DNA of 64,000 nucleotides from Stanieria cyanosphaera PCC 7437. GTDB taxonomy: Bacteria; Cyanobacteriota; Cyanobacteriia; Cyanobacteriales; Xenococcaceae. A program made the position numbers and the translations under genes. The notes below the pieces were generated by a model, which made no database searches, was not told the origin of the DNA, and saw nothing but the letters and a program-made list of their open reading frames with translations. The stretch is taken from NCBI RefSeq assembly GCF_000317575.1, contig NC_019748.1, forward strand, positions 4,298,501 to 4,362,500, in the 5' to 3' direction. Within the stretch, counting starts at the first letter, position 1. Every line of letters begins with the position of its first letter. Shown here in pieces: positions 3,123 through 5,619 of the stretch.

Positions 3123-3182
3123 AAAAAATGCGTCCACAGATGAACGCGGATGAAGTTATTGTTTAGTGATGTTTTTTGTTGA
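3123..3182 (+). repeat. dispersed repeat, copy A (inverted partner at 6181-6252)
   Basis: The segment begins AAAAAATGCGTCCACAG and ends GTTATTGTTTAGTGATG followed by a T-run and GTTGA. Its reverse complement, with a roughly 12-bp insertion, lies at 6181-6252. Together the two bracket the exonuclease-ATPase and DUF2288 genes. Shorter relatives sharing GTCCACAG lie at 23461-23527 and 63261-63300. Confidence 0.8.
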
Positions 3183-3201
3183 TAGTTGATGGCAATTAAC
3201 A

Positions 3202-5619
3202 ATGAATAATCAGCAAGATTTTTTAATTGTTGATACAGAAGGAAAGCATCAAGTAAATGAAATTGCTGTCATTAATAGTCAAGGTAATTTAATCTACGAA
3301 GCTTTTGTTCAAGAATATGCTGCTCACGATCACATTAAGTTAAATCGTAAACCTCTGCAACAAATTATTCTTGAATTTAATAATTTAGCACAGAATAAAC
3401 TATTAATTTGTCATCATGCTGACCACGATTTTCAAGTTTTACAAAATAGTTTTATTGCCGTAGAAGTTCCTTGGCAAAATTTTCAATTTGCTTGTACTTA
3501 CAAGTTAGCTAAAAAATATTTTCCCAATCTAATCAGTTATTCCCTTGAATATCTTAGTAAAAAACTTAATTTAAAGGTCAAGCAAAAATATTTTAATTCT
3601 CAACAAGCACATTCAGCTAGATACGATGCTGAATTTACTTATCAATTATATTGGAAAGTTATGGAAGAAATAACTATTAAAAGATTACAGAATCAACCCA
3701 ATCCTTTTGGGAGTAGTAGAGTAGATACTCCTTTTCAAGAACATCTCGATTTGACTTCTATTTATAACAATCAATTTGCCACTTTAAAATCCATTATTAC
3801 TGATATTAAATACGATCAAAATCATCAAAGTAAAGGAGTTATAGTTATTGGTGAGCCAGGAACAGGAAAAACTCATTTAATGATGCGATTGGCGCAAGAA
3901 GTACTCGAAGTTAATCGGTTACTTTTTATTCGTCAACCGAATAATCCAGATGCAGTTATTTATCATACTTACAGTAGAATTTTAGAATCTTTAATTGAAA
4001 AAGTAACTCAAAGCAATTACACCCAACTAGAATATTTACTAGCTAATAGTTTTAGAAAAATAATTCAAAATAATCTCATCGATAATACCAATCAAAAAGA
4101 TCAATTTATTTTAGCTGCAACTCAAACTAATCCTCTCGAACTTTATGATAGTTTAGGCACGGATGGTACTCAGAAAAAACGCGACTATTGGCAACACATT
4201 GAAAAAAGAACTTTAGAATGGTGGCTAGAACATTATGGTGGAGCAGGTTATTCTTTAGAAATTATCAAAGGTATTATTAAGTTTTGTAGTTATTCAGATT
4301 TTAATTATAAAAAATTAGTCACTCGATGGCTAGCTGCTGATGAACTAGCACCAGAAGAACTAGATAAAATAAAATTAAATAATTGGAATGAAGAAATCAG
4401 TAAAGAAAATTTTTCTTTAGAAGCGATCGCGGTTCTGAGTAAGCTTTCTCTTTTAGATGAACCTCTAATTATTATTTTCGATCAACTAGAAGGTTTAGGT
4501 TTAAAGCATCACGAAAAATTGCTATTAAGTTTTGGCGAAGCAATTAAAGAAATTTTTACTCATGTCCCAAATAGTTTGATTATTTTTAATTTGTTTCCCA
4601 GTCGTTGGCAACATTTTCAACAGATTCTTGATGGCTCTATTGTAGACCGTATTTCTCAATATCAAGTTACCTTAGAGAAACCGAATTATTCAGATTTAGA
4701 ACAAATTTTACAACTAAAAGCAGCTATCATTGATTTAGATGTAAAAACTTTATTTACCGAGCAAGAATTAGTAAATATTTTAGCAGGTAATTCTATTCGT
4801 GCAGTTTTAAATCGGGCTGCGGATTATTATCGTTATAAAGTCAATCAAATTCCTTTACCACAATTATCTTCTCAATCTTTAACTCATTCTTTAGCTTCAG
4901 AAGAAACAATTTTACCAAGAATTGAAAAATTAGAACAGCAATTTACACAGTTGCAAAAATTATTAGCTAATTTAGCTCAAGCTTTTAGTGGTTTTACCAA
5001 TACATTAGCTGTAACAAATAAACAAGAATTACAATCAAACGAACCTAATAATTATCCTACTAATCAAGAAGTTATTGATTATCTAGAAACTCAGAAAAAG
5101 TTATTAGAACAAGACTACGATAAACTACAAATTATTAGTGATAGTGATGATATTGGTAAGTTAAAAACTATCATAGAAGCTTTTCAAACTATTGTTAATT
5201 TAGAAATAGATCATTTGAGGTTAGGTAAAAAAAAGATTCCCGATCATCTGGTAGTCAAAAAAACAAACTACACTCTGGTAATTGGATTTTTACAAATAGA
5301 TGGTACTGCTTTTACGACTCGAATAAAAAACTTTAATGAATTAGTAATCAATCATAAAGAAATTAGATTTTTACTGCTTAGAGACAATAGAAAACCTAAA
5401 CTTACAGGTAAAGTTGCTCAAGAAGAAATAACCAAATTAAATAATTCTGCTAATGGAAAATTTTCTCTAATTGATCGCGATAATAGAATTAGTTTTGAAG
5501 TAATTTATCGCTTAGTTACAGATATTTACAATCGAGATTTTGATGTATCTTTGGTAGAAGCTTTTAATGCTCTTAAACAACAATTAAATAATTATTGGCT
5601 AATTAAACTAATGCAATAA
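3202..5619 (+). CDS. DEDDh exonuclease fused to P-loop ATPase, 805 aa, function unknown
   Basis: Domains seen in order: (1) residues 1-155, a DEDDh 3'-5' exonuclease fold, with Exo I DTEG (Asp11, Glu13), Exo II in HHADHDFQVL (Asp76) and Exo III HSARYD (His137, Asp142). (2) About 190-560, a P-loop ATPase with Walker A GEPGTGKT (217-224) and Walker B LIIIFDQLE (Asp427, Glu430), followed by a sensor-like strand IIFNLFPSRW. (3) A coiled coil at about 572-600. (4) A mixed alpha/beta C-terminal region, about 650-805, that I do not recognise. All exonuclease and ATPase residues look intact. The fusion suggests ATP-driven processing or sensing of nucleic acid, perhaps defence or repair; that is inference. 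The gene is very AT-rich and lies between inverted repeat copies. Confidence 0.8.
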   Translation: MNNQQDFLIVDTEGKHQVNEIAVINSQGNLIYEAFVQEYAAHDHIKLNRKPLQQIILEFNNLAQNKLLICHHADHDFQVLQNSFIAVEVPWQNFQFACTYKLAKKYFPNLISYSLEYLSKKLNLKVKQKYFNSQQAHSARYDAEFTYQLYWKVMEEITIKRLQNQPNPFGSSRVDTPFQEHLDLTSIYNNQFATLKSIITDIKYDQNHQSKGVIVIGEPGTGKTHLMMRLAQEVLEVNRLLFIRQPNNPDAVIYHTYSRILESLIEKVTQSNYTQLEYLLANSFRKIIQNNLIDNTNQKDQFILAATQTNPLELYDSLGTDGTQKKRDYWQHIEKRTLEWWLEHYGGAGYSLEIIKGIIKFCSYSDFNYKKLVTRWLAADELAPEELDKIKLNNWNEEISKENFSLEAIAVLSKLSLLDEPLIIIFDQLEGLGLKHHEKLLLSFGEAIKEIFTHVPNSLIIFNLFPSRWQHFQQILDGSIVDRISQYQVTLEKPNYSDLEQILQLKAAIIDLDVKTLFTEQELVNILAGNSIRAVLNRAADYYRYKVNQIPLPQLSSQSLTHSLASEETILPRIEKLEQQFTQLQKLLANLAQAFSGFTNTLAVTNKQELQSNEPNNYPTNQEVIDYLETQKKLLEQDYDKLQIISDSDDIGKLKTIIEAFQTIVNLEIDHLRLGKKKIPDHLVVKKTNYTLVIGFLQIDGTAFTTRIKNFNELVINHKEIRFLLLRDNRKPKLTGKVAQEEITKLNNSANGKFSLIDRDNRISFEVIYRLVTDIYNRDFDVSLVEAFNALKQQLNNYWLIKLMQ

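Follow-up and report, generated by a model that had tools for sequence, protein, structure and literature searches.

The window examined here is a 64,000 nucleotide stretch of the Stanieria cyanosphaera PCC 7437 genome (NC_019748.1, positions 4,298,501 to 4,362,500, forward strand). It contains a gene (3202..5619) for an 805 amino acid protein in which a DEDDh exonuclease is fused, in one chain, to an ATPase related to those of the ORC/Cdc6-iREase kind (iREase, inactive restriction endonuclease). The fusion is unusual and is what is new here. We propose, at a probability of about one half, that the protein is an ATP-controlled DNA-surveillance exonuclease that acts mainly against invaders, a compact one-gene relative of the predicted ORC/Cdc6-iREase-HerA/FtsK systems. 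The proposal is supported by the fold assignments, the invariant catalytic residues, profile kinship to ATPases encoded in operons, the sporadic, decayed and plasmid-borne copies, and purifying selection. The nuclease and ATPase activities of the window protein, and its target, are unproven predictions from sequence and structure models.

As we envisage it, the AAA+ domain would bind ATP and oligomerise on DNA, and the dead restriction endonuclease (REase) domain and a long helix may help to recognise or hold a DNA structure. ATP binding or hydrolysis would then bring the exonuclease to a 3' end, and the outcome would be the trimming or destruction of incoming or aberrant DNA (phage, plasmid, or broken or displaced ends). 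If this is true, the predicted multi-gene ORC/Cdc6-iREase systems against invaders have a version pared down to a single protein, and this ATPase family has been combined with a DEDD exonuclease in two ways, here by direct fusion and elsewhere through a separate FtsK partner. Island-based searches would then also have overlooked a defence gene.

Domains and active sites of the fusion protein

An open reading frame (ORF) check found the frame open throughout, with an 805 codon product from an ATG. For pairs of close homologues, the ratio of nonsynonymous to synonymous substitution rates (dN/dS) is 0.03-0.32 in each domain, so the intact copies are under selection and the protein is not a chance ORF. 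The family was aligned as 38 full-length homologues with about 40-54% identity. An AlphaFold model of the full protein from a 34-sequence input has a predicted local distance difference test score (pLDDT) of 85 and a predicted template modelling score (pTM) of 0.74. An earlier sequence-only reading had described one 805 amino acid chain with an exonuclease, a P-loop ATPase and a C-terminal domain; the open ORF and the AlphaFold models agree with this order, and the limits guessed then (1-160, 190-560 and 650-805) are consistent with the models. The parts of the gene are as follows.

3202..5619, + strand: whole gene, 805 amino acids, predicted DEDDh exonuclease, ORC/Cdc6-like AAA+ ATPase and probable degenerate REase-like domain (ATG start, open ORF)
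3202..3687, + strand: residues 1-162, predicted DnaQ/PolC-type DEDDh 3'-5' exonuclease with catalytic D11, E13, D76, H137 and D142 (PDB matches, invariant residues)
3688..4866, + strand: residues 163-555, ORC/Cdc6/TnsC-like AAA+ ATPase with a lid helical bundle (PDB matches, AAA_16)
3850..3873, + strand: Walker A GEPGTGKT, residues 217-224 (G217, G220, G222 and K223 invariant)
4465..4491, + strand: Walker B LIIIFDQLE, residues 422-430 (D427, Q428, L429 and E430 invariant)
4648..4650, + strand: R483, candidate arginine finger (invariant; placed by the model just before core strand 5, residues 487-490)
4867..5058, + strand: residues 556-619, low-confidence linker with a long helix at 570-596 (pLDDT below 50 at 556-568 and 597-619)
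5059..5616, + strand: residues 620-805, probable degenerate REase-like (iREase) domain with no ExK (separate model, weak PD-(D/E)XK-type matches)

The N-terminal domain is a DnaQ-fold DEDDh 3'-5' exonuclease with an intact active site, as judged from sequence and model, and is predicted to be active. The closest PDB fold is PolC (Z 17.7, 153 residues, 2.5 Å), and RNase T (Z 16.3), Pol III epsilon and Cap18 are also near. Pfam RNase_T matches the window protein at 32.7 bits (cut-off 24) and is found in all 38 family members. The five catalytic residues that had been called intact are where they were first placed and are invariant in the 38 homologues, in the order DxE (D11/E13), D (D76) and H-x4-D (H137/D142). 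The fold and these five residues are common to the DnaQ/PolC, RNase T and Cap18 exonucleases; we know of none that is fused to an ORC/Cdc6-like ATPase. Exonuclease-DinG of Gram-positive bacteria, described in S. aureus (PMC12345164), likewise pairs a DEDDh exonuclease at its N-terminus with an ATP-dependent motor, but the motor is an SF2 helicase and not an ORC/Cdc6-type AAA+ domain.

By model comparison, the ATPase is an ORC/Cdc6/TnsC-type AAA+ domain. It matches the ORC/Cdc6 structures 1w5t (Z 16.1, 251 residues, 3.3 Å) and 2qby (Z 15.8, 236 residues, 3.1 Å) and the TnsC structures 7mcs (Z 15.2) and 7ufi (Z 15.0), and Foldseek matches include BREX BrxC (9zdx). Pfam AAA_16 is found in 38 of 38 family members, although the score for the window protein (31.7 bits) is slightly under the cut-off of 32.6. 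Both Walker motifs noticed in the sequence-only reading are intact, with G217/G220/G222/K223 and D427/E430 (in IIIFDQLE) invariant in the 38 homologues. In ORC/Cdc6-type ATPases, the arginine finger is sited just ahead of strand 5 (PMC12839542), and because R483 has the same placement we predict that it has this role. The lid helices of the model span 496-548, after the strand at 487-490.

TnsC/TniB of Tn7-type elements and the window protein have an AAA+ core fold in common (Z about 15), but the window protein is longer and has the extra exonuclease and C-terminal domains. No transposase (TnsAB/TniA) is kept as a neighbour in 38 loci, and no conserved neighbour of any kind was found there. 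An ORC/Cdc6-type AAA+ domain is also common to BREX BrxC (DUF6079) and BrxD. DUF6079 gives a weak match in 12 of the 38 homologues and is absent from the matches of the window protein itself, which, unlike BrxC, has no room for a wHTH/alpha+beta/wHTH tail (wHTH, winged helix-turn-helix) and carries an exonuclease in front. Neither PglZ nor PglX is conserved near the gene in the 38 loci. A STAND-type sensor was not found after the NTPase, where only the short linker and the 186 residue REase-like domain follow.

Judging by its model, the C-terminal domain probably has the fold of an REase that has lost its catalytic activity (iREase) and is used for binding. Modelled alone it has a pLDDT of 93.6, a pTM of 0.88 and a PD-(D/E)XK-like topology. 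Its PDB matches are weak (Z at most 6.8), and most of the top ones are PD-(D/E)XK-type proteins: XisH, SfsA, EcoT38I, BspD6I, BstEII, Bax1, EndoMS, FokI and McrC, all of one fold. We rejected an active PD-(D/E)XK nuclease at the C-terminus, as none of the 34 sequences shows an ExK in strand 3 (LVIGFLQ). Invariant residues in this domain are P680, N710, N712, F723, L725, R727, D728 and R762. No wHTH follows the iREase in the AlphaFold model; past the last strand there are only helices at 759-776, 784-794 and 799-804.

Kinship to ORC/Cdc6 ATPase operons

Profile comparison links the window ATPase with two further families of cyanobacterial ATPases (hhalign probabilities 99.3 and 97.8), each of which occurs in a cassette of three genes.

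L046:5987-11679, L047:4109-9710 and L048:3595-9154: protein of about 300 amino acids, ORC/Cdc6-type ATPase, and exonuclease, PD-(D/E)XK and FtsK protein
L049:6750-10766 and L050:5304-9333: protein of 226-233 amino acids, ORC/Cdc6-type ATPase of about 611-615 amino acids, and DUF1802 protein

The small protein beside the first-family ATPase has a weak wHTH match. The protein on the other side (861-879 amino acids) combines a DEDD exonuclease of the RNase D-like type with a PD-(D/E)XK domain and an FtsK translocase (Pfam 1.1e-26, 1.7e-14 and 4.2e-41, respectively) and matches PADLOC SspH at 1.3e-69. The DUF1802 protein after the second-family ATPase has a weak Mrr_cat nuclease match. The antiphage NCBIfam model DS41_1 matched the L046 ATPase at 9.8e-10, which is far under the cut-off of the model, and we set this match aside. 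Within a few kb of all three first-family cassettes there is a ParA-like gene (MGYVIATANMKGGVGKTT or near it).

Sections of Rakesh, Aravind and Krishnan (2024; PMC10853773) describe ORC/Cdc6 ATPases that occur with HerA/FtsK and an active REase as predicted counter-invader systems. The inactive REase is located between the AAA+ core and the wHTH, and a 3'->5' exonuclease is sometimes fused to the HerA/FtsK part. As the systems are portrayed in those sections, they and the window protein have in common the ATPase core, probably the iREase domain as well, and a 3'->5' exonuclease in the system. The window ATPase is homologous by profile to the ATPases of the first-family operons, which fit the description in those sections, and the ATPase and probably dead REase-like domain of the window protein would belong with these ORC/Cdc6-iREase ATPases. 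The exonucleases differ: the one in the window is of DnaQ type (DEDDh) and fused to the ATPase, whereas that of the operons is RNase D-like and is on the FtsK partner. The C-terminal domain alone gave no significant profile match to the distant relatives, so homology of their C-terminal domains is drawn from order and placement only.

HerA/FtsK and an active REase were not found in the same operon as the fusion gene; no neighbour is conserved among 38 loci, and the neighbours in the window are housekeeping genes. We consider the protein a solitary one-chain relative, which may act like a member of the counter-invader systems, and do not class it as one. The sequence-only reading had not recognised the arrangement as a standard repair enzyme. 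This agrees with our search for a characterised housekeeping homologue, which found none with the same domain order among PDB sequences, Pfam, NCBIfam, PADLOC and PHROGs.

Descent, loss and possible roles

Of 386 cyanobacterial genomes searched, about 30 have complete or nearly complete copies. When 388 genomes of the same order were searched with a profile, the matches listed included full-length copies in about 59 genomes, and further broken fragments of the gene. A GTDB scan for close relatives and a plasmid search returned cyanobacterial relatives only. Seven plasmid records have a nearly full-length copy, all of them cyanobacterial and some conjugative or mobilizable. There are no copies in 50,697 phage records and none confirmed in IMG/VR; a viral origin, which we also considered, has no support from these sources, and among the matches listed no viral structure clearly covers more than one domain.

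Distances for the gene and for ArgS in 30 genomes are correlated (Mantel r 0.868, a value that none of 2000 permutations reached), and the gene tree clusters largely by host family, so descent is mainly vertical. The gene evolves faster than ArgS (median distance 0.558 vs 0.318). It is old in cyanobacteria and is easily and often lost. In a same-genus species (G431), the panB and argS flanks align at 91-92%, and a decaying remnant of residues 692-805 is kept between the same neighbours; the segment missing there corresponds to this part of the window.

3129..5285, + strand: 2,157 bp missing in the same-genus species (flank alignment)

Sporadic presence and decay are consistent with a defence role.

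Intact copies of 641-682 amino acids that begin just past the exonuclease are present in nine genomes. They retain all ATPase key residues and have a single change in the C-terminal key residues (D728E, in one copy). They form two separate groups in the tree, one adjoining the window protein, and their dN/dS is 0.09-0.25. No remnant of a hidden exonuclease was found in the fetched flanks. The persistence of these versions under purifying selection indicates that the ATPase-iREase part has a function for which no exonuclease is required in cis. The copy of G536 was excluded from this set since its ORF runs off the contig, and the stop-interrupted full gene at L138 (G518) was treated as no more than a likely recent break. 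With a single gene, natural exonuclease-free versions and a sister species without the gene, genetics is made easy.

A more detailed form of the invader-directed proposal, which we put forward tentatively, is that of an ancient, vertically inherited, partner-free nuclease outside defence islands. The ATPase would load the DEDDh exonuclease on foreign DNA in a single chain, and after loss of the exonuclease the ATPase-iREase part would still protect or do another DNA task. Several results weigh against the invader-directed proposal. Chromosomal copies sit amid housekeeping genes, and PADLOC matches in their vicinity show no clear enrichment over controls: at 1e-15, for 16 chromosomal copies, there are 195 families in 144 neighbours and 173 in 141 control proteins, with look-alikes dominating both. 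Inheritance is mostly vertical, unlike that of many mobile defence genes, and the structural matches behind the iREase assignment are weak (best Z 6.8). The window protein also has no C-terminal wHTH and none of the HerA/FtsK and active REase partners that the published sections give for the systems (PMC10853773). The link to defence in the sequence-only reading therefore stands in part: ancestry (kinship to the ORC/Cdc6-iREase ATPases), sporadic presence and decay favour it, while the check for defence genes among the neighbours that it suggested fails for the chromosomal copies.

The same surroundings and vertical descent would suit an accessory enzyme of DNA repair or replication maintenance, in which the ATPase would sense DNA that is damaged or stalled and 3' ends would be resected by the exonuclease. 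Such an enzyme would be of use in certain habitats and be lost elsewhere. Most genomes have a single copy and the nearest exonuclease fold is of the proofreading and repair DnaQ-PolC type, as such a role would have it. We find this role rather doubtful, given that the gene is distributed very unevenly inside families and genera, copies decay freely, exonuclease-free versions are viable, and related ATPases are in operons of the counter-invader type. It is unlikely that the protein began in the maintenance of plasmids or other mobile elements, or as an anti-competitor protein, and later became resident on chromosomes; the seven plasmid records, conjugative and mobilizable ones among them, and a divergent parA adjoining the gene on two Synechococcus elongatus plasmids fit this idea, but chromosomal copies are the majority, the gene tree tracks host families, and no replication or transfer partner is conserved. 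An RNA-directed abortive-infection effector is very improbable. In this reading the DEDDh domain would trim RNA in the manner of RNase T, one of the closest folds (Z 16.3), under a STAND-like switch (several STAND/NACHT Pfam models weakly match the ATPase). Against it, the ORC/Cdc6/TnsC fold and the invariant R483 ahead of strand 5 argue for an oligomerising DNA-type AAA+ domain, and no STAND-typical repeat sensor follows the ATPase.

Surroundings and variant copies

The surroundings of the gene in the window are ordinary chromosomal ones with housekeeping neighbours. On one side is a gene we take to be panB, and on the other a 95 amino acid ORF followed by what is presumably argS on the opposite strand. 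The genome (5.54 Mb, 6 contigs) has a single copy of the fusion gene. No operon partner is conserved across the 38 loci, and chromosomal neighbours elsewhere include acetate kinase and glycogen debranching enzyme. Others, recognised by sequence, are presumably a ribosomal protein and genes of central metabolism. Matches to Cas12f and PD-T4-6 near some loci we assume to be TnpB transposases and protein kinases, respectively.

Some genomes have more than one copy or copies with other parts missing. G591 has two full-length copies. G518 has two copies (L138:6420-8876 and L139:5766-8327), in one of which an in-frame stop separates the exonuclease from the ATPase. Decayed copies at L135 and L136 (G659 and G645) retain only pieces of the exonuclease and of the C-terminal domain, the ATPase having been lost by internal deletion and not by truncation. 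A 644 amino acid copy at L133:6352-8286 (G529) has the exonuclease and ATPase and not the C-terminal domain, of which no remnant was found nearby.

Plasmid copies are near TIR/macro-domain genes, GmrSD-type genes, methyltransferases or a NurA-DUF87 pair, although the plasmids may be rich in these generally. On the two S. elongatus plasmids (L053:19252-22424 and L056:13276-16442), where the gene adjoins the divergent parA, the genes downstream are TIR and macro-domain genes on one and a DNA methyltransferase on the other.
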